Assembly: GCF_000711235.1 (NCBI RefSeq)
Contig: NZ_JOMI01000004.1
Span: 124,001-188,000 of the forward strand
Direction of reading: 5' to 3'
From: Prevotella sp. 10(H)
GTDB taxonomy: Bacteria > Bacteroidota > Bacteroidia > Bacteroidales > Dysgonomonadaceae
DNA length: 64,000 bases
This document shows, in pieces, positions 2,238 through 61,217 of this stretch. The position numbers were made by a program, and so were the translations under genes. The notes beneath the pieces are model-generated. The model searched no databases. It was not told the origin of the DNA and saw only the letters and a program-made list of their open reading frames with translations. Each line of letters begins with the position of its first letter. Position 1 is the first letter of the stretch.

Positions 2238-2668
2238 GTACCAAAATCCCGGAAACATATACAATAGAGGTCAAAAGCAAGTGATTTGTTATACATTTTT
2301 AATCTAATGACACAGGCATGTTAAATATATAAGGTTTATTTTCAACAGAATACATATGGTATATAAATACTCAATGATTAAAATGATAGGCTCCCATATT
2401 CATTATACCGATATCCGGTGTAAATAAAAGAGATAATTTCCCTGATTAATTTTTCTGCTTTATTTATTATTGAGTAAATTGCGACCGTTTTTCCTATACA
2501 GAAACTATTATAAAACAATATCAAGGTGAAGACTGTCTCTATTCTGAACTTTAACAAAATATACAAGACTGTTATAGAACCCGTAATATATTAAAAATCA
2601 TGAATTATAATGTCAGCGGCAAATGAACCATTTAAGTTTTTTTATCTACGATATTGAAACGTTTTATT

Positions 2669-2676
2669 TAAATTTG
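2669..2676 (+). promoter_or_regulatory. Promoter -7 element for the PBP1A gene
   Basis: TAAATTTG matches TAnnTTTG exactly and lies 27 nt before the ATG at 2704. No clear -33 element is seen at the expected spacing. Confidence 0.5.
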
Positions 2677-2703
2677 CAGACTGATTAGATTTACACTTAC
2701 TAT

Positions 2704-5088
2704 ATGGACGATAAGAAAGCGAAATCGAAAAAAAATAAACTTTCCGGCAAATTCTCATCCAAGAAAATTGTAAAAAAACTATGGATTGCTTTTGCCTGTA
2801 TTGTTGTATTAATAATAGGACTATTTGCAGGAATAGGGGTAGGCGTCATCGGGTATATGCCGGATGTGGAAGAACTGGAAAACCCTATCGATAAATATGC
2901 ATCTCAGATATATTCTTCGGATGCCGTGCTTCTCGGCACGTATTCGCAAGCAAAAAACAACCGTATATATTCCAATTACAGTGATCTTTCGCCATACCTA
3001 GTACAGGCCCTTGTAGCTACCGAAGATGCCCGTTATTATTCTCACTCGGGTATCGATGTATATGCACTGGCACGCGCAGTAGTCAAGACTGTAATATTAC
3101 AGCAATCGAGCGGTGGTGGCGGCAGTACAATCACACAGCAGTTGGCAAAGCTGCTTTATTCTCCTCCGGCCGAAAACTGGATGGTGCGTGTTTTCCTGCG
3201 AAAGCCTATCGAATGGGTTATTGCTGTTAAGCTGGAACGATATTACACCAAAGACGAAATTGTAAACCTGTATCTGAATCAGTTCGACTTTCTCAATAAT
3301 GCCGTAGGCATTCAGTCTGCATCACAGGTATATTTTAATAAAACGCCGAAAGACCTGACTATCGAAGAAGCGGCTACACTGATCGGCATGTGTAAAAATC
3401 CTTCTTATTTCAATCCGAGAAGGCATGGTGAACGCACACAGGGACGACGCAATGTGGTGCTCGATCAAATGCGAAAAAATAAATACATTACACAACATCA
3501 ATATGATTCACTGAAACTGATACCATTAAAACTTGATTTCAGAAGAGTAGATCATAAAGACGGGCTTGCACCCTATTTCAGGGAATATCTGCGCCTGACC
3601 TTAAATGCAAAGAAGCCTGATAGGGCAAATTATGCATCGTGGCAAAAAGACCAATTCACCATCGATTCTATAAACTGGGAAACCAACCCGATGTACGGTT
3701 GGTGTAATAAGGTAAAAAAACCGGACGGATCAGCTTACAATCTGGCAACCGACGGACTTAAGATATATGCAACAATAGACTCCCGTATGCAGCAATATGC
3801 AGAAGAGGCGATGACCGAACATATGAGCAAAGAAATACAGCCGGATTTCGACAGGGAAAAAAGAGGCAGATCGTATGCCCCATATTCTTATTCTGTAGCC
3901 AAACAGGTAGACACATTACTACATAAAGCAATGAGAAATACAGACAGATACAGGGCTATGAAAAAAGGCGGTGCTTCCGAAAAGGAAATAATGGCAGCAT
4001 TCAGAAAGCCTGTAGAAATGAAAGTATTCTCGTGGAGAGGCGAAATAGATACCATTATGACGCCGCTCGATTCGGTACGTTATCATAAAGGATTTCTCCG
4101 TTCAGGATTTATGGCAATGGATACGCACACCGGATATGTAAAAGCGTACGTAGGCGGAATAGACTACCGCTACTTCCAGTACGACATGGTAAATATGGGA
4201 CGCCGTCAGGTTGGATCGACTATAAAGCCATATCTCTATGCCCTGTCTATGCAGGAAGGTATGACGCCTTGCGACCAGATGCAATACGAGCAGCAGGTTC
4301 TGGTAGATGAAATCGGCCGTACACATCCGCCACGAGGACTGAGAGCATCGAAGGTAGGAGAAATGGTCAGCATAAAATGGGGGCTGCAAAACTCCGATAA
4401 TATGGTTACTGCATACCTGATGAACAGGACATCACCCTATGCTTTTGCACGGTTCCTGCGTTCTTTTGGATTGACAGGCCATATTGATCCGGTACCGGCC
4501 ATGTGCCTGGGAACACCGGAAGTAACAGTTGCGGAAATGGTAGCTGCATATTCGGCTTTTGCCAATAAAGGTGTTCGCGCAAACCCGATATATATTACAC
4601 ACATAGAAGACCGGAGCGGAAATATCATAGCCAACTTTACTCCAAAATTGGATGAAGTATTCGGAGAAGGCACTTATGTAAAAATGATCGATATGCTTCG
4701 CGGTGTTATCGACGGTGGTACCGGAGGCCGAGTAAGACGCAATTATGGAATAACCGCACCAATGGGAGGCAAAACAGGTACGACACAGAATAATTCCGAC
4801 GGATGGTTTATGGGCTTCACCCCTACCCTTTCTGCCGGTTGCTGGGTTGGCGGTGAAGAACGTGCCATACACTTCGACCGTACTACCGACGGACAAGGTG
4901 CCGCCATGGCTCTTCCTATTTATGGCCTTTTTATGAAAAAAGTATATGCCGACCCTAAGCTGGGTTATAAGCAAACCGAACAGTTCGGAACAGTTTCGGG
5001 ATATGGTGTTTGTGATAAGATAACAGAAGATATTCCGGATGCTCCTGCTCCTTCGACGGCTGTAGGCATCGATAAGATGTTTAATTAA
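2704..5088 (+). CDS. mrcA: Class A penicillin-binding protein (PBP1A type), bifunctional
   Basis: A bifunctional peptidoglycan synthase that polymerises lipid II glycan strands and cross-links stem peptides in the periplasm. A basic cytoplasmic start is followed by one membrane anchor (about residues 26-50). The GT51 transglycosylase domain carries the catalytic Glu in ATEDARYY (E107) and GGSTITQQLAK (139-149). The transpeptidase domain has all three motifs: S505-T-I-K508 (acyl-enzyme Ser), S564-D-N and K690-T-G. At 794 residues the length is normal for PBP1A. A GYF_2 protein gene follows 45 nt downstream. The gene symbol is by family; the local name may differ. Confidence 0.93.
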   Translation: MDDKKAKSKKNKLSGKFSSKKIVKKLWIAFACIVVLIIGLFAGIGVGVIGYMPDVEELENPIDKYASQIYSSDAVLLGTYSQAKNNRIYSNYSDLSPYLVQALVATEDARYYSHSGIDVYALARAVVKTVILQQSSGGGGSTITQQLAKLLYSPPAENWMVRVFLRKPIEWVIAVKLERYYTKDEIVNLYLNQFDFLNNAVGIQSASQVYFNKTPKDLTIEEAATLIGMCKNPSYFNPRRHGERTQGRRNVVLDQMRKNKYITQHQYDSLKLIPLKLDFRRVDHKDGLAPYFREYLRLTLNAKKPDRANYASWQKDQFTIDSINWETNPMYGWCNKVKKPDGSAYNLATDGLKIYATIDSRMQQYAEEAMTEHMSKEIQPDFDREKRGRSYAPYSYSVAKQVDTLLHKAMRNTDRYRAMKKGGASEKEIMAAFRKPVEMKVFSWRGEIDTIMTPLDSVRYHKGFLRSGFMAMDTHTGYVKAYVGGIDYRYFQYDMVNMGRRQVGSTIKPYLYALSMQEGMTPCDQMQYEQQVLVDEIGRTHPPRGLRASKVGEMVSIKWGLQNSDNMVTAYLMNRTSPYAFARFLRSFGLTGHIDPVPAMCLGTPEVTVAEMVAAYSAFANKGVRANPIYITHIEDRSGNIIANFTPKLDEVFGEGTYVKMIDMLRGVIDGGTGGRVRRNYGITAPMGGKTGTTQNNSDGWFMGFTPTLSAGCWVGGEERAIHFDRTTDGQGAAMALPIYGLFMKKVYADPKLGYKQTEQFGTVSGYGVCDKITEDIPDAPAPSTAVGIDKMFN

Positions 5089-23076: not shown

Positions 23077-23128
23077 ATTTTAATTTATGTCCCGTCCTAA
23101 AATAGGTTTACAACAAAAACAACTTATT

Positions 23129-23563
23129 ATGGAACATCAAGAAAATGAGTATTATGTCAAACGTACTCAAAAAGACTACAGCCTATCTTTTAAACTTCAA
23201 GTGGTTCAAGAAATTGAATCCCGAGAGCTCAACTTAACTCAAGCAGCTCTCAAGTATGGCATTCAATCAACCAGCACAATTCGCACTTGGCTCAGAAAAT
23301 TTGGTACCTTAGACCGAGAATTACAAGTCAAATTTACTATGGAAAAGACTCCTGAACAACGGTTAATGGAACTGGAAGCTAAAGTTCGTCTGCTTGAAAA
23401 GCAAAAGGCGAGTTTAGAGAAGCAGCTTGAATTTCAACAGGATAAGGCAATCATGTTTGATATTATGATCGACATAGCCGAAAAAGAGTTTAATATTCCC
23501 GTCCGAAAAAAGTCTGTACCCGAAGCATCGAACGCTTCAAAGAAGAAAGGACAGCAACCATGA
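23129..23563 (+). CDS. IS3-family OrfA (copy 1)
   Basis: A 144-residue DNA-binding subunit of the transposase. A helix-turn-helix (SFKLQVVQEIESRELNLTQA, then TIRTWLRKFG) is followed by a leucine-zipper-like coiled coil (about 75-110). I start at the ATG at 23129. A longer frame from 23087 uses an ATG made by the flanking A plus the terminal TG, and copy 2 lacks it. The stop overlaps the orfB ATG. Confidence 0.92.
   Translation: MEHQENEYYVKRTQKDYSLSFKLQVVQEIESRELNLTQAALKYGIQSTSTIRTWLRKFGTLDRELQVKFTMEKTPEQRLMELEAKVRLLEKQKASLEKQLEFQQDKAIMFDIMIDIAEKEFNIPVRKKSVPEASNASKKKGQQP
23506..23512 (+). promoter_or_regulatory. Programmed -1 frameshift site in the IS
   Basis: A AAA AAG occurs in the orfA frame with the correct phase. 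After a -1 shift the frame stays open into orfB, giving a 423-residue OrfAB fusion. A GAAGC/GCTTC hairpin (23522-23538) starts 9 nt downstream and could stimulate slippage. The same site is at 39679-39685 and, on the minus strand, at 58652-58658. Confidence 0.65.
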
Positions 23564-24399
23564 TTTATTCATGTGATGTCTTCGGGATCAGCCGACAGGC
23601 TTATTATAAACGAGTTGACAGAGCTAAGCAGAAACAAGCTTATGGCGAGTATGTTATATCCAAAGTTCAGGATGTTCGAGTGGCTATGCCCAGACTTGGA
23701 ACTCGCAAATTATATTACCTGTTGGGTTCTTCTTTGAATATTGGCAGAGATAAACTATTCAGTATCCTCAGGGCCAATAAAATGTTAATAAGTCCTGTTC
23801 GGTCATATACCAAGACTACTATGTCAAAACATTGGCTACATAAACATCCCAACCTGTTAAAGGATATGATTGTCTATCGCCCCGAACAGGTTTTTGTGAG
23901 TGATATAACCTATATTAAATCAAAACAAAAGACACATTATCTGTCTTTGATTACTGATGCCTGTTCCAGAAAAATAGTTGGATATCATCTAAGTAATGAT
24001 TTGGGTGCACAAAGTGTATCTAAAGCTCTGAAAATGGCGATAAAGACTAGAGTTTACCATAACCCTTTGATTCATCACTCTGATAGGGGATTACAATATT
24101 GCTCTGAATTATATCAGAAAATATTAGCTAAGAATAAAATTACTCCATCGATGACTGATGGCTATGATTGCTATCAAAATGCACTGGCTGAGAGAATTAA
24201 TGGAATACTAAAACATGAGTTCTTATTTACAAAATGCAATAACTATCAGCAATTAAGCCTGTTAATTAAACAATCTATTGATATTTATAACAATAAAAGA
24301 CCACATTTGGCTCTGAATATGAAAACGCCTAACTTTATCCATCTGAAACAAAAAACCAATGAACATAAATCCATCGGTTCTTATACTATTTTAATATAA
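23560..24399 (+). CDS. IS3-family OrfB transposase (copy 1)
   Basis: A 279-residue DDE transposase catalytic part. An HTH_21 region (about 25-85) precedes an rve integrase core with D115 (VSDITYIK), D175 (HHSDRGLQY) and E211 (NALAERINGILKHE), the IS3-type DD(35)E spacing. Its ATG overlaps the orfA TGA (ATGA), so it may be made alone by coupling or as the OrfAB fusion by frameshift. Confidence 0.95.
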   Translation: MIYSCDVFGISRQAYYKRVDRAKQKQAYGEYVISKVQDVRVAMPRLGTRKLYYLLGSSLNIGRDKLFSILRANKMLISPVRSYTKTTMSKHWLHKHPNLLKDMIVYRPEQVFVSDITYIKSKQKTHYLSLITDACSRKIVGYHLSNDLGAQSVSKALKMAIKTRVYHNPLIHHSDRGLQYCSELYQKILAKNKITPSMTDGYDCYQNALAERINGILKHEFLFTKCNNYQQLSLLIKQSIDIYNNKRPHLALNMKTPNFIHLKQKTNEHKSIGSYTILI

Positions 24400-24478
24400 A
24401 TCCTGTAAACCTATTTTAGGACGGGACATTAAGTGAAATATTTCATAATATTTGTTCTGCAAATTGTTAAAAATTAGA

Positions 24479-39250: not shown

Positions 39251-39301
39251 TTTGTTATTCTGTCCCGTCCTAAAATAGGTTTACAACAAAAACAACTTAT
39301 T

Positions 39302-39736
39302 ATGGAACATCAAGAAAATGAGTATTATGTCAAACGTACTCAAAAAGACTACAGCCTATCTTTTAAACTTCAAGTGGTTCAAGAAATTGAATCCCGAGAG
39401 CTCAACTTAACTCAAGCAGCTCTCAAGTATGGCATTCAATCAACCAGCACAATTCGCACTTGGCTCAGAAAATTTGGTACCTTAGACCGAGAATTACAAG
39501 TCAAATTTACTATGGAAAAGACTCCTGAACAACGGTTAATGGAACTGGAAGCTAAAGTTCGTCTGCTTGAAAAGCAAAAGGCGAGTTTAGAGAAGCAGCT
39601 TGAATTTCAACAGGATAAGGCAATCATGTTTGATATTATGATCGACATAGCCGAAAAAGAGTTTAATATTCCCGTCCGAAAAAAGTCTGTACCCGAAGCA
39701 TCGAACGCTTCAAAGAAGAAAGGACAGCAACCATGA
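39302..39736 (+). CDS. IS3-family OrfA (copy 2)
   Basis: A 144-residue helix-turn-helix and coiled-coil protein identical to OrfA of copies 1 and 3. In this copy the base before the element is C, so the upstream ATG seen in copies 1 and 3 is absent. This shows that the internal ATG is the true start. A frameshift heptamer is at 39679-39685. Confidence 0.92.
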   Translation: MEHQENEYYVKRTQKDYSLSFKLQVVQEIESRELNLTQAALKYGIQSTSTIRTWLRKFGTLDRELQVKFTMEKTPEQRLMELEAKVRLLEKQKASLEKQLEFQQDKAIMFDIMIDIAEKEFNIPVRKKSVPEASNASKKKGQQP

Positions 39737-40572
39737 TTTATTCATGTGATGTCTTCGGGATCAGCCGACAGGCTTATTATAAACGAGTTGACAGAGCTAA
39801 GCAGAAACAAGCTTATGGCGAGTATGTTATATCCAAAGTTCAGGATGTTCGAGTGGCTATGCCCAGACTTGGAACTCGCAAATTATATTACCTGTTGGGT
39901 TCTTCTTTGAATATTGGCAGAGATAAACTATTCAGTATCCTCAGGGCCAATAAAATGTTAATAAGTCCTGTTCGGTCATATACCAAGACTACTATGTCAA
40001 AACATTGGCTACATAAACATCCCAACCTGTTAAAGGATATGATTGTCTATCGCCCCGAACAGGTTTTTGTGAGTGATATAACCTATATTAAATCAAAACA
40101 AAAGACACATTATCTGTCTTTGATTACTGATGCCTGTTCCAGAAAAATAGTTGGATATCATCTAAGTAATGATTTGGGTGCACAAAGTGTATCTAAAGCT
40201 CTGAAAATGGCGATAAAGACTAGAGTTTACCATAACCCTTTGATTCATCACTCTGATAGGGGATTACAATATTGCTCTGAATTATATCAGAAAATATTAG
40301 CTAAGAATAAAATTACTCCATCGATGACTGATGGCTATGATTGCTATCAAAATGCACTGGCTGAGAGAATTAATGGAATACTAAAACATGAGTTCTTATT
40401 TACAAAATGCAATAACTATCAGCAATTAAGCCTGTTAATTAAACAATCTATTGATATTTATAACAATAAAAGACCACATTTGGCTCTGAATATGAAAACG
40501 CCTAACTTTATCCATCTGAAACAAAAAACCAATGAACATAAATCCATCGGTTCTTATACTATTTTAATATAA
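39733..40572 (+). CDS. IS3-family OrfB transposase (copy 2)
   Basis: A 279-residue DDE transposase identical to the copy 1 protein, with D115, D175 and E211 intact. The ATG overlaps the orfA stop. Confidence 0.95.
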   Translation: MIYSCDVFGISRQAYYKRVDRAKQKQAYGEYVISKVQDVRVAMPRLGTRKLYYLLGSSLNIGRDKLFSILRANKMLISPVRSYTKTTMSKHWLHKHPNLLKDMIVYRPEQVFVSDITYIKSKQKTHYLSLITDACSRKIVGYHLSNDLGAQSVSKALKMAIKTRVYHNPLIHHSDRGLQYCSELYQKILAKNKITPSMTDGYDCYQNALAERINGILKHEFLFTKCNNYQQLSLLIKQSIDIYNNKRPHLALNMKTPNFIHLKQKTNEHKSIGSYTILI

Positions 40573-40611
40573 ATCCTGTAAACCTATTTTAGGACGGGAC
40601 ATTCGAAAAAA

Positions 40612-41067
40612 TTATTTCTTCAAAATATACATATCTGCCATCTCTCCGGTAATCCTGTTACCCTCCATGTCCAGTTGAGTAAGCATGTTTTCTCCTACAA
40701 AATATTGATTTGGTGATTCTTTCACACCGTCAAGTATTACAGTATTACCAGCAGGATTCCAGGTATATTTACCTTTTTCTTCCGATTTACTGTTTTTCTT
40801 GCCTACATATTCAATATTTTTTACGTAAGTGCTGTCATCAAGCTTAATTGACACTATCATACCCTCTCCACTTGCAGTAGGCACTTTTCCAGTGTAAGTA
40901 CCCTTATAGTCGAGTGAGTTTTTGGCATTATGTTGATCAGTTGTATTTTTTGCAACTTCCGAAAACTCATCCACAGATGGTTTTTCTTCCTGATTTTTTT
41001 GAGCGTTTCCACCACCGCAACTATATAGCATACCCATAGCTGCTATGATTACAAATAATTTTTTCAT
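40612..41067 (-). CDS. NlpE-like lipoprotein
   Basis: A 151-residue lipoprotein (lipobox LYSC, Cys at 17). YKGTYTGKVPTASGEGMIVS and the later KGKYTWNPAGNTVIL fit the NlpE N-terminal domain, which in E. coli senses surface and copper stress. The usual Cys-x-x-Cys after the first strand (as in PCADC) is replaced by PTASG, so a redox or copper role by those residues is lost. It starts 8 nt after the HMA-domain gene on the same strand, which suggests a copper-related pair. Copy 2 of the IS lies just past its stop. Confidence 0.72.
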   Translation of the reverse strand: MKKLFVIIAAMGMLYSCGGGNAQKNQEEKPSVDEFSEVAKNTTDQHNAKNSLDYKGTYTGKVPTASGEGMIVSIKLDDSTYVKNIEYVGKKNSKSEEKGKYTWNPAGNTVILDGVKESPNQYFVGENMLTQLDMEGNRITGEMADMYILKK

Positions 41068-57764: not shown

Positions 57765-58604
57765 TTATATTAAAATAGTATAAGAACCGATGGATTTATG
57801 TTCATTGGTTTTTTGTTTCAGATGGATAAAGTTAGGCGTTTTCATATTCAGAGCCAAATGTGGTCTTTTATTGTTATAAATATCAATAGATTGTTTAATT
57901 AACAGGCTTAATTGCTGATAGTTATTGCATTTTGTAAATAAGAACTCATGTTTTAGTATTCCATTAATTCTCTCAGCCAGTGCATTTTGATAGCAATCAT
58001 AGCCATCAGTCATCGATGGAGTAATTTTATTCTTAGCTAATATTTTCTGATATAATTCAGAGCAATATTGTAATCCCCTATCAGAGTGATGAATCAAAGG
58101 GTTATGGTAAACTCTAGTCTTTATCGCCATTTTCAGAGCTTTAGATACACTTTGTGCACCCAAATCATTACTTAGATGATATCCAACTATTTTTCTGGAA
58201 CAGGCATCAGTAATCAAAGACAGATAATGTGTCTTTTGTTTTGATTTAATATAGGTTATATCACTCACAAAAACCTGTTCGGGGCGATAGACAATCATAT
58301 CCTTTAACAGGTTGGGATGTTTATGTAGCCAATGTTTTGACATAGTAGTCTTGGTATATGACCGAACAGGACTTATTAACATTTTATTGGCCCTGAGGAT
58401 ACTGAATAGTTTATCTCTGCCAATATTCAAAGAAGAACCCAACAGGTAATATAATTTGCGAGTTCCAAGTCTGGGCATAGCCACTCGAACATCCTGAACT
58501 TTGGATATAACATACTCGCCATAAGCTTGTTTCTGCTTAGCTCTGTCAACTCGTTTATAATAAGCCTGTCGGCTGATCCCGAAGACATCACATGAATAAA
58601 TCAT
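57765..58604 (-). CDS. IS3-family OrfB transposase (copy 3)
   Basis: A 279-residue DDE transposase identical to the proteins of copies 1 and 2, with D115, D175 and E211 intact. Confidence 0.95.
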   Translation of the reverse strand: MIYSCDVFGISRQAYYKRVDRAKQKQAYGEYVISKVQDVRVAMPRLGTRKLYYLLGSSLNIGRDKLFSILRANKMLISPVRSYTKTTMSKHWLHKHPNLLKDMIVYRPEQVFVSDITYIKSKQKTHYLSLITDACSRKIVGYHLSNDLGAQSVSKALKMAIKTRVYHNPLIHHSDRGLQYCSELYQKILAKNKITPSMTDGYDCYQNALAERINGILKHEFLFTKCNNYQQLSLLIKQSIDIYNNKRPHLALNMKTPNFIHLKQKTNEHKSIGSYTILI

Positions 58605-59035
58605 GGTTGCTGTCCTTTCTTCTTTGAAGCGTTCGATGCTTCGGGTACAGACTTTTTTCGGACGGGAATATTAAACTCTTTTTCGGCTATGTCGATCATA
58701 ATATCAAACATGATTGCCTTATCCTGTTGAAATTCAAGCTGCTTCTCTAAACTCGCCTTTTGCTTTTCAAGCAGACGAACTTTAGCTTCCAGTTCCATTA
58801 ACCGTTGTTCAGGAGTCTTTTCCATAGTAAATTTGACTTGTAATTCTCGGTCTAAGGTACCAAATTTTCTGAGCCAAGTGCGAATTGTGCTGGTTGATTG
58901 AATGCCATACTTGAGAGCTGCTTGAGTTAAGTTGAGCTCTCGGGATTCAATTTCTTGAACCACTTGAAGTTTAAAAGATAGGCTGTAGTCTTTTTGAGTA
59001 CGTTTGACATAATACTCATTTTCTTGATGTTCCAT
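58601..59035 (-). CDS. IS3-family OrfA (copy 3)
   Basis: A 144-residue helix-turn-helix and coiled-coil protein identical to the other copies. A junction-created ATG at 59077 would extend it by 14 residues, but copy 2 shows this is not needed. The frameshift heptamer is at 58652-58658 on the minus strand. Confidence 0.92.
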   Translation of the reverse strand: MEHQENEYYVKRTQKDYSLSFKLQVVQEIESRELNLTQAALKYGIQSTSTIRTWLRKFGTLDRELQVKFTMEKTPEQRLMELEAKVRLLEKQKASLEKQLEFQQDKAIMFDIMIDIAEKEFNIPVRKKSVPEASNASKKKGQQP

Positions 59036-59088
59036 AATAAGTTGTTTTTGTTGTAAACCTATTTTAGGACGGGACATTCAATATATAC

Positions 59089-59138: not shown

Positions 59139-61217
59139 TTATAATTTATCTATCTGGTCTTTAAGATGCTTGCGATAATAGAGATGCTCTGCATCTTCGA
59201 TTACTTCCTTCACATCGAAATCGACAGCATACTTCTCTATAAACTCTCGAATCTGCAACTTATTTACAGCCCGTTTATCACTGAGATAATCAGCTAAGCG
59301 CAGCAGCAAGACCTTTTGCTTCTCCAATGTTTCCTGTGCCAGTACCTCAGCTTTATTCAGCATTTCTTTGGCCTCGGCATTGATACCCGTCCTGTCGTCA
59401 TCGAAAATGATGGCGGGTGCTTCATCCATATGTTCATTGCCAAAAGTTGCCAGTGTATTGCCCATACCACATGAATAAAGGATATGAGTAGCCAACTTTG
59501 TAGCATTCGTCAAATCGACATTCGAACCAATAGTTATATTCTCATCGCCGAAAACAATACGTTCGGCAACCAAACCGCCCATAAGTACTGCCAAACGATT
59601 TATGACCTCTTTCTTCGATACATAGTTCCATTGTGGACGAGCCAATACAAAACCGAGACTATTGCTGTCGGCAGTAACTGAAAATACCGAATCGGGTATT
59701 GTTTTCATCAGAATAGAGGATAATACTGCGTGACCACTTTCGTGTACGGCAGTAATAGCCTGCTCATCATTCAGTTTTTCTTTTCGTAGTTTGCCCAAGA
59801 CAAGCGCCTGTTTTTCTGTGATGCTGTGAATCGACTGTTTATCTTTTATAAAATCGATACGGATAGCTGTGATATCCTTTGTCGATTTGGCTTCATCAAC
59901 CGTAAAATCAATAGAATCTATTTCCAGACCTTTCAGGAAAATCTCATTCAGCACATTACCCAAACGTGTATTTATAACCTGATGAATAGTCGTGAATAAC
60001 GGACGGGTGCCCTGTGTAGGATAAACCCCTTCTTCATAAATCAGATTCTCTATCTTGCTGTCGAAATTTGCATTAATCTGATATATATCGTTCAACTTTT
60101 TCTTTATTTTATTCAGTTCGAGCCGGATAATACCATGAAACGCCTTCCTGTTAAATGTAGGATAAATGATATGGATATTACCAAGACGCGCAATCTGCTC
60201 ACTCCGGAAACGTGTCAATAACGCATTCTTAACCTGTGTCACAGTAATCTTTGATGATTGTTTATGAAATTCATCCGCATTCATATCGGGATTGAAGTCA
60301 TAGGTCATTGTGTATACTTCATCCAGATTACCCATTACAAACACAAGGGCTTTAGAACAGTCGACCGTCTTCGGCTTCAATGATTTCTTATACAAATATA
60401 TCAGATAGCTGATTGTTTCTTCCCCGTCCAGCTCGTTAAGTTTATTTCTTAACTCTGCTTTCGACAGGAACATATCCGATACGACATAGAAAATGGTAGT
60501 CAGATTATTTTCTGGTAGGAAGTATACTTTCTTTTCTTTTTTACCTCCGTTTTCTACTGCACCTTCTTCATCGTCATCCAAATCATCACCAGTATTGTTA
60601 TCATCTTCGAGTTCCAATATATCTTTATGGATATCGAACTGGGCCGTGACAACTCCGTTCTCTACTTCAACACCCTTTGCCAGAGCAAGGTCGAGTTTCT
60701 TTATCAGCTTGTTAAAGACACCCATATTGTAATTGAAATCGAGAAGATCGAATTTGCCGCTATCCAACAAATCCCAGATAGCCCGTGAAGAAGCCTTGTC
60801 AACTTCCTCCTGTTTTTCATTTAATGTACGTGCCAGTTGGAATTCATCCAGACTGATAATAAACGGTTCCTTGTCGCAATTTTCGTAAATATCGCGGAAA
60901 GAATCCTGTATATCGTAATATTTGCCGGAACTTTCACCCAGATCGAAACGATAATAACGTTCATTGAAATCTATTAATTCGGCTAAGCGTTTTACAAGAG
61001 AAGTTTTACCAATACCTGTCAATCCCCAAAGGTTTATTACTACAGGTTTTTCCTGCATTTCAGGAAAGTAAAGCCATGAACTCAATGCGTCGGATATCTG
61101 ATCTATTACATTATTAATTCCGACAAATTCTTTTTTTAGTTGAGCTACGGCATTTTCGAGCAGTGCTTTTTTATCAAATAGGTGCTCTCTATATTGTTCG
61201 ATAAGTTTTTGTTCCAT
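59139..61217 (-). CDS. Clp-type AAA+ ATPase fused to an M41 (FtsH-like) metalloprotease
   Basis: A 692-residue predicted ATP-dependent protease. The AAA+ part has Walker A GLTGIGKT (65-72), Walker B SLDEF (D124, E125), sensor 1 VMGN (N298), an arginine-finger region LLTRFRSEQIARL (333-345) and sensor 2 GTRPLF (R405), the pattern of Clp/HSP100 proteins rather than FtsH. A 130-residue insert with an acidic stretch (about 200-230) lies between Walker B and sensor 1. The C-terminal part is peptidase M41: HESGH (H492, E493, H496) and the third ligand D568 in GSNVDLTNAT, after MGGLVAERIVFGD. FtsH has two membrane helices; none is seen here. It should be cytosolic. Substrates are unknown. Confidence 0.85.
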   Translation of the reverse strand: MEQKLIEQYREHLFDKKALLENAVAQLKKEFVGINNVIDQISDALSSWLYFPEMQEKPVVINLWGLTGIGKTSLVKRLAELIDFNERYYRFDLGESSGKYYDIQDSFRDIYENCDKEPFIISLDEFQLARTLNEKQEEVDKASSRAIWDLLDSGKFDLLDFNYNMGVFNKLIKKLDLALAKGVEVENGVVTAQFDIHKDILELEDDNNTGDDLDDDEEGAVENGGKKEKKVYFLPENNLTTIFYVVSDMFLSKAELRNKLNELDGEETISYLIYLYKKSLKPKTVDCSKALVFVMGNLDEVYTMTYDFNPDMNADEFHKQSSKITVTQVKNALLTRFRSEQIARLGNIHIIYPTFNRKAFHGIIRLELNKIKKKLNDIYQINANFDSKIENLIYEEGVYPTQGTRPLFTTIHQVINTRLGNVLNEIFLKGLEIDSIDFTVDEAKSTKDITAIRIDFIKDKQSIHSITEKQALVLGKLRKEKLNDEQAITAVHESGHAVLSSILMKTIPDSVFSVTADSNSLGFVLARPQWNYVSKKEVINRLAVLMGGLVAERIVFGDENITIGSNVDLTNATKLATHILYSCGMGNTLATFGNEHMDEAPAIIFDDDRTGINAEAKEMLNKAEVLAQETLEKQKVLLLRLADYLSDKRAVNKLQIREFIEKYAVDFDVKEVIEDAEHLYYRKHLKDQIDKL

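Follow-up and report, generated by a model that had tools for sequence, protein, structure and literature searches.

What kind of protease results when the unfolding motor of one protease family is joined to the peptidase of another? The question is raised by a gene in a 64,000-nucleotide stretch of the Prevotella sp. 10(H) genome (contig NZ_JOMI01000004.1; the whole stretch is called the window below), which encodes a single chain, hereafter the fusion, with a Clp/HSP100 D2-type AAA+ module at residues ~10–457 and an FtsH-type M41 zinc peptidase at residues ~480–663. The known bacterial ATP-dependent proteases come in a handful of pairings, namely Clp with ClpP, HslUV, Lon, FtsH and the proteasome with Mpa. 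Judged by its sequence, the fusion is an AAA+ protease with a new motor–peptidase pairing, which has the full set of ATPase and zinc residues and no membrane segment, and its family is scattered over bacteria and giant phages. On balance we lean towards the explanation that the protein is a soluble zinc protease driven by ATP, probably as a hexamer, with an optional role in stress or conflict, probably one tied to damaged translation.

The two halves of the protein lead to different families. Three Pfam matches were above cut-off: Peptidase_M41 at residues 484–658 (E = 1.3e-23), ClpB_D2-small (PF10431) at 357–421 (E = 5.6e-8) and AAA at 63–152 (E = 2.1e-5). When a profile of 56 AAA halves was searched against the PDB, Hsp104, ClpE, ClpC and ClpB came out on top (3e-20 and weaker), followed by more Clp proteins and by classical AAA proteins such as MSP1 and AFG2 (6e-7), which were placed below most HSP100 matches yet above ClpX (4e-4); there was no FtsH among the best 60 of the 262 matches, which were those examined. 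Against 15 reference proteins, the same profile gave Clp proteins 78 to 24 bits, E. coli Lon 19.9 bits and seven FtsH proteins at most 8.1 bits. The M41 half matched all seven of these FtsH proteins at 95–117 bits. A phmmer search of the PDB likewise connected the C-terminal half to FtsH and stretches of the N-terminal half to ClpC, Hsp104 and ClpB. No model spanning both halves was present in the libraries searched; no NCBIfam model reached its cut-off on the fusion protein (the best, FtsH_fam, scored 73.5 against 600 over residues 471–655), and PHROGs, with which five members were scanned, matched the two halves separately.

Predicted structures gave the same division. The whole chain was modelled with AlphaFold2 from the window protein and 54 IMG/VR rows, with a predicted local distance difference test score (pLDDT) of 85.7. 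A fold search with the whole model placed FtsH chains first (E = 1.6e-12) and the first Clp at rank 39, and whole-chain FtsH also led a second list, with Z 22.6 but a root-mean-square deviation (rmsd) of 6–7; FtsH leads both lists because its chains cover both domains. Taken by segment, residues 9–457 of the model matched ClpC/Hsp104/ClpB (Z up to 18.7, rmsd 3–3.5) and residues 480–676 matched the M41 domain of AFG3L2/FtsH (Z 19.7–21.6, rmsd 2.8–4.0), where AFG3L2 reached Z 21.6 and 2di4, the protease domain of FtsH, Z 19.7 (rmsd 2.8 over 170 residues). Folded alone, the AAA half (pLDDT 90.3) was closest to mitochondrial CLPB/Skd3 (Z 24.7, rmsd 2.6, 304 residues), with ClpC, ClpA, ClpB and ClpX also among the best 50 rows (Z 24.7 to 21.8, rows within 1 Z being counted as tied); FtsH was not among these 50, which is compatible with a weaker match beyond them. 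FtsH-like and Clp-like entries led a BFVD fold search; several entries are unnamed, and a fusion could be among them. A first-pass annotation, made from the sequence letters, had proposed a Clp-type motor and an FtsH-type peptidase in one chain, and the profiles, reference scores and fold matches bear this out: compared with ClpX/ClpA and with FtsH, the AAA half is Clp by profile and by fold, and by profile it does not fall inside the FtsH AAA clade.

The same annotation had described a single soluble chain, and this description held when a hidden membrane segment in a longer N-terminus was sought and none was found. The open frame measures 694 codons, two beyond the ATG-started open reading frame, which leaves no room for an extended N-terminus that could hide a membrane helix. 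Hydropathy (KD-19) of the fusion protein reached a maximum of 1.51, and of 0.83 in the first 100 residues, compared with N-terminal peaks of 1.77–2.73 in seven true FtsH controls. The closed upstream frame and the low KD-19 values together exclude a hidden N-terminal helix, and the N-terminal transmembrane helices that are a trait of FtsH were not found in the fusion protein by either means.

Searched for across genomes, the domain pair turned up in the same layout in 26 Bacteroidota genomes, in IMG/VR and in the phylum to which a Bdellovibrio assembly belongs. The window's GlyA agrees with a place in Bacteroidota: its identity is 80% to the Parabacteroides protein and 77% to the Bacteroides one, compared with 57% or less to the non-Bacteroidota proteins among the matches listed. 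The fusion is present in 4 of 25 genomes of the window's genus (the window's own genome, G000, included), at 63–66% identity; in 5 of the 394 genomes sampled from the phylum, searched with a narrow profile (E 1e-30); and in 21 of 396 genomes of the class, from 16 of 203 genera, with a wider profile (1e-40). These samples overlap (G000, G077 and G218 recur) and combine to the 26 genomes, the window's own and 25 others. Five of 290 genomes matched in the phylum of the Bdellovibrio assembly, four with a full-length protein and one with a fragment. IMG/VR yielded 76 loci with the wider profile and one with the narrow profile, and a third scan returned two loci, both on contigs already in the set. 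The PF03237 terminase was found in 14 of the 39 IMG/VR records tested, 13 of them above cut-off, so at least 13 of these records are phages. Matches also occurred in 153 plasmid and 20 phage records, none covering 80% of the query; most of the best 30 of the 153 plasmid rows and of the 20 phage rows hit the M41 part, and many are annotated as FtsH. A contig scan with the narrow query yielded only an ordinary Bdellovibrio FtsH.

The resulting set comprised 104 loci (26 bacterial and 78 from IMG/VR) with one matching open reading frame each; removal of the duplicates L109 and L110 and of members more than 90% identical left 84 non-redundant members, 26 bacterial and 58 viral. All 84 retain N297, R344 and R405 of the motor and H492, E493, H496 and D568 of the peptidase. 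K71 is present in 82 (two gaps), D124 in 83 (one gap) and E125 in 82 (one gap, one Asp), and the N-terminal part is absent from two viral rows, L075 and L099. Three of the four full-length members from the Bdellovibrio phylum, which lie outside the 84, also keep all of these residues. Walker A, Walker B, sensor 1, arginine finger, sensor 2, HESGH and the third ligand, which the annotation had read in one 692-residue chain, were each located (Table 1). Its Clp-like arginine finger is indeed present, with E340, Q341, R344 and G346 all invariant in the 84 members, and R344 is a better placement than R338, a candidate we rejected as it is Arg in 49 and Lys in 29 of the 84.

Table 1. Features of the fusion gene and its surroundings, in window coordinates
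Feature	Position	Strand	Basis or remark
Fusion gene, Clp-type AAA+ / M41	59139..61217	minus	692 residues, ATG start, stop codon included
AAA+ module, Clp/HSP100 D2-like, residues 1–457	59847..61217	minus	Pfam, PDB profile, fold match
Walker A GLTGIGKT, residues 65–72	61002..61025	minus	Sequence; K71 conservation
Walker B, residues 121–125 (D124, E125)	60843..60857	minus	Conservation
Insert, 129 residues (157–285), between post-Walker B helix and sensor-1 strand	60363..60749	minus	
Acidic low-confidence loop within insert, residues 202–229	60531..60614	minus	pLDDT <50
Sensor 1, residues 293–300 (N297)	60318..60341	minus	84/84 members
Clp-like arginine finger FRSEQIARLGN, residues 337–347 (R344)	60177..60209	minus	
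Sensor 2 G-x-R (G403xR405), residues 401–407	59997..60017	minus	R405 84/84
M41 peptidase, residues 484–663	59229..59768	minus	Pfam and fold match
Zinc motif HESGH, residues 492–496	59730..59744	minus	HExxH 84/84
Third-ligand motif GSNVDLTNAT, residues 564–573 (D568)	59499..59528	minus	D568 84/84
Terminator-like hairpin directly 3' of stop codon	59089..59120	minus	Weak: 2 found against 1.5 expected in shuffles

M41 is the MEROPS class of the FtsH, i-AAA and m-AAA proteases. With these the fusion shares an M41 peptidase, with HExxH and a distal Asp, behind an AAA+ motor in one chain; it differs from them in its Clp/HSP100 motor, in having neither membrane helices nor MFVG, and in an insert of 78–172 residues. 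With the Clp/HSP100 proteins ClpC, ClpA, ClpB D2, ClpX and CLPB/Skd3, the best fold matches of its AAA half, it shares the AAA+ core, the D2-small domain, the FxxExxxR finger and the GxR sensor 2, but it has a zinc peptidase of its own and is missing the GYVG pore loop 1; Clp unfoldases act together with a separate ClpP by way of an IGF/LGF loop. Lon likewise carries an AAA+ motor and a peptidase on one polypeptide; its peptidase is a Ser-Lys enzyme, and E. coli Lon scored lower with the AAA profile than the best Clp proteins. The PADLOC profile of DolB, which we take to be a component of the Dodola defence system, matched residues 7–86 of the AAA half (E = 5.7e-9), a stretch that covers the start of the AAA domain only and contains no M41. 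No description of such a protein, and no characterised orthologue, was found in the open-licence literature; a 2016 RNA-repair survey (10.1093/nar/gkw722), outside that scope, could mention the fusion. The sections of PMC7824862 consulted mention phage ClpA, ClpX and ClpP and do not mention FtsH or M41.

The neighbourhoods of the fusion in bacteria are of two main kinds. In 17 of the 26 bacterial genomes, representing 11 families, a WYL gene (Pfam PF13280) lies within 3 kb of the fusion, and a separate cluster profile detected a WYL neighbour in 15 of the 26. Each genome carries 0–4 WYL genes, and in nine the fusion-adjacent one is the sole WYL gene. Only 0.12 such loci are expected by chance, giving P ~5e-35 under independence, a value that is too small because relatives are not independent (5 of the 17 share one genus), though 11 families are represented. 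The portion of PMC4012209 consulted assigns WYL genes a regulatory role in defence systems.

RNA-repair genes adjoin the fusion in five genomes, all without a WYL context (RtcB in four, PrfH in three, KptA in three), and the two contexts occur together in none of the 26. The arrangement in G018 (G and L numbers are our handles for genomes and loci) is RtcB–PrfH–fusion–KptA in one direction, with PrfH 7 bases from the fusion and identities checked by Pfam. In G738 and G451 the order is RtcB–PrfH–fusion, the called frame of PrfH overlapping that of the fusion (for G738 this hinges on which start is taken); in G001 two small genes stand between RtcB and the fusion, which is followed by KptA; and G023 has fusion–KptA. 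KptA lies 1–2 bases from the fusion in three genomes. Adjacency to RtcB in 4 of 26 genomes has P ~9e-6 by a rough estimate that assumes two RtcB genes per genome. In a quick tree, the five genomes form two groups separated by branches with support of at least 95 in the Shimodaira–Hasegawa-like approximate likelihood ratio test, and the RNA-repair context requires at least two changes when only such branches are trusted. These five neighbourhoods share genes with the RtcB–PrfH operons described in parts of PMC9223846 and PMC6514570. Ribosomes that colicin E3 has cleaved are rescued and mended by an RtcB2–PrfH module, according to the part of PMC9223846 consulted, and PrfH, unlike transfer-messenger RNA (tmRNA), adds no degradation tag for a protease, according to that of PMC1586002. 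Among accessory genes, section 2.4 of PMC6514570 lists tetratricopeptide-repeat, Pol-beta, zinc-ribbon and charged-helix proteins, and no protease is named in that section.

In the explanation we favour, the M41 peptidase that the chain carries in cis with its single Clp/HSP100 D2-type motor would stand in the place held by ClpP for ClpX/ClpC. By analogy with both parent families, six AAA modules would form a ring stacked on a ring of M41 domains, and the motor would feed the blade in the cytosol without the usual pore-loop-1 motif, perhaps aided by the insert. The neighbourhoods point to a conditional enzyme, situated either beside its own WYL regulator or within RtcB–PrfH–KptA operons. In those operons it could dispose of the proteins that damaged ribosomes retain or release, with RtcB and KptA mending the RNA; we propose that a protease in a PrfH operon would fill a gap because PrfH adds no degradation tag, and the adjacency to PrfH, RtcB or KptA in some genomes makes the fusion a candidate for the missing protease of damage-induced ribosome rescue. 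A bolder version is speculative and, taken whole with its WYL and phage parts, unlikely: a Clp motor without a classical pore loop and an M41 blade would constitute the degradation arm of damaged-ribosome rescue in some lineages. PrfH would free the unfinished chain untagged, RtcB and KptA would mend the RNA, and the fusion would remove the chain or broken ribosomal parts, much as tmRNA plus ClpXP do but with no tag involved. Signals from phage or RNA damage would induce the WYL-linked copies, and in giant phages the phage-encoded copy would serve to protect phage translation. If true, this would define a new class of energy-dependent protease. The fusion would in any case add a further pairing, found in two bacterial groups and giant phages, in which the catalytic residues are kept and the usual gripping loop is gone, making it possible to ask which motor parts are truly required for unfolding.

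Several observations weigh against the favoured explanation, and the first concern the motor itself. The canonical pore-loop-1 motif, seen in E. coli as MFVG in FtsH and as GYVG in ClpA, ClpB and ClpX, occurs in none of the 84 members, and the segment from strand 2 to Walker B has a median of 32 residues compared with 46 in E. coli ClpA and ClpB, about 14 fewer. Substrate threading is therefore uncertain, and the AAA part could instead act as a torsin-like switch or remodeller that does no threading and, by uncovering or gating the M41 site, permits a specific partner to be cleaved to a limited extent. Torsins are HSP100-type ATPases without pore loops, and a weak Pfam Torsin match at residues 24–80 (E = 0.0093) fell below cut-off. 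Also in favour of such a switch is the insert before sensor 1, which, judging from ClpB, probably occupies roughly the position of Clp pore loop 2; it is variable (78–172 residues, median 110.5), with no column conserved in 50 of the 84 rows. Such a switch is possible but on the unlikely side: the residues that bind and hydrolyse ATP and couple the subunits are retained, some aromatic residue remains near the place of pore loop 1 in 62 of the 84 members, and the closest fold, CLPB/Skd3, is titled a disaggregase. The idea that an acidic stretch in the insert is a conserved adaptor site, by contrast, was given up, as neither the relatives' alignment nor the model confidence supports it: the stretch falls in the low-confidence loop, 13 residues of which are gapped in the three nearest relatives. 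One of these three keeps a DDDDE run at the site, and some run of at least four Asp or Glu occurs in the inserts of 29 of the 84 members.

Further counterpoints come from individual members and from the neighbourhoods. HExxH is lost in L186 of the Bdellovibrio phylum (2596–4608, minus strand), a homologue with a signal-peptide-like start that is perhaps a dead, exported variant. The KD-19 peak exceeds 1.6 in 12 of the 84 members; in L037 and L038 it sits at an N-terminus read from TTG, a start that is probably wrong. The RNA-repair context is a minority (5 of 26), neither context is present in four genomes (G000, G289, G418 and G490, the last at a contig end), and the cluster profile detected no WYL neighbour at any of the 58 viral or five Bdellovibrionota-type loci. 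In the window's own strain the fusion gene stands alone: within the window there is no WYL gene nearby and neither RtcB nor PrfH next to it, two WYL genes lie elsewhere in the genome, and RtcB and KptA are absent genome-wide. What this genome does contain, on another contig (G000:C9:335725–335859, outside the window), is a 68-codon frame resembling the C-terminal region of PrfH (51% across 48 residues; E = 2e-5); with RtcB and KptA missing, it may be what is left of a repair operon that was lost. RtcB is present in 12, KptA in 9 and PrfH in 8 of the 25 genomes of the genus. Seven of these eight PrfH carriers are without the fusion, only G018 having both, and in G009 and G020 KptA, PrfH and RtcB lie close together without it; the fusion is thus an optional addition to such operons and dispensable there.

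This last pattern would also suit a general cytosolic quality-control protease whose neighbourhoods would mean no more than that the genes move together in defence islands or operons. The patchy spread across the four genome samples (searched at differing thresholds) is consistent with such mobility, as are GmrSD-type and DUF2779/Cas4-like neighbours at single loci checked. We nevertheless regard a general quality-control role as doubtful. WYL adjacency far exceeds its expectation (17 of 26 genomes versus 0.12 loci), the frames nearly touch or overlap those of PrfH and KptA on two separate branches, and absence from most genomes argues against housekeeping.

Viral members are the majority of the non-redundant set, and the fusion might have entered bacteria by capture from phages, which would use the protease in host takeover, virion maturation or counter-defence. 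IMG/VR contigs supply 58 of the 84 non-redundant members, the terminase counts identify phages among them, a DnaK-like gene lies within 560 bases of the fusion in four records, and 6 of the 26 bacterial rows sit among viral rows in the tree. Set against this are the unequal sampling of the collections and the other 20 bacterial rows, which lie beyond the midpoint, though with a branch support of 81 and a root placed for drawing only; capture from phages seems improbable to us. Within about 10 kb of the 58 viral fusions we counted RtcB three times, KptA twice and a release-factor-like gene once, together with Pth2-like genes (nine), Thg1-like genes (seven) and DnaK-, DnaJ- and IF3-like genes (five each), these latter labels being assigned by eye. 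The release-factor-like gene stands directly beside the fusion in L085; it matched the PrfH profile, but its sequence looks more like that of general class-I release factors, and it was not counted as PrfH. The least credible alternative, an ordinary FtsH that lost its membrane anchor, has in its favour a clearly FtsH-type M41 half and the FtsH chains heading both whole-model fold lists by covering both domains, but it is excluded for practical purposes by the AAA-half profile, with its low FtsH scores and its lack of FtsH among the best PDB matches.

Other features near members of the family were recorded in passing. In viral L098 (11248–13379, plus strand) RtcB lies directly downstream of the fusion and is split by a 263-residue open reading frame, homing endonuclease-like by eye. 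The DnaK-like genes of L038, L039, L041 and L042 follow the phage-borne fusion by 56–557 bases on the same strand, and in L052, L053, L054, L086 and L103 Thg1-like and Pth2-like genes flank it at similar distances. The RNA-repair island of G018 (L025, 5129–6945, minus strand) includes genes for an RNA ligase (PF09414) and a P-loop kinase (AAA_33) further on. Upstream of fusion–KptA in G023, a protein that looks zinc-ribbon-like by eye (L027, 10527–11126, minus strand) recalls an accessory gene in PMC6514570. A large DUF2779 protein (by Pfam, in L142 only) with weak Cas4 similarity is encoded near the fusion in L142 (7442–8929) and L143 (12722–14770), and this DUF2779/Cas4-like sequence cluster occurs near 4 of the 26 bacterial fusions. 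In G289, a membrane-protein gene, DUF4407-like by eye (L031, 2609–3697, plus strand), ends where the fusion frame starts. The window's genome encodes three other M41 proteins (L002, 277–2151; L003, 1459–3324; and L004), all FtsH-like with hydrophobic N-termini. About 60 bases downstream of the window's fusion lies an IS3-type element (57765–59077, minus strand; transposase label by eye), with further near-identical copies at 23087–24428 and 39261–40617 (identity 100% across 1342 aligned bases and 99.6% across 1359).

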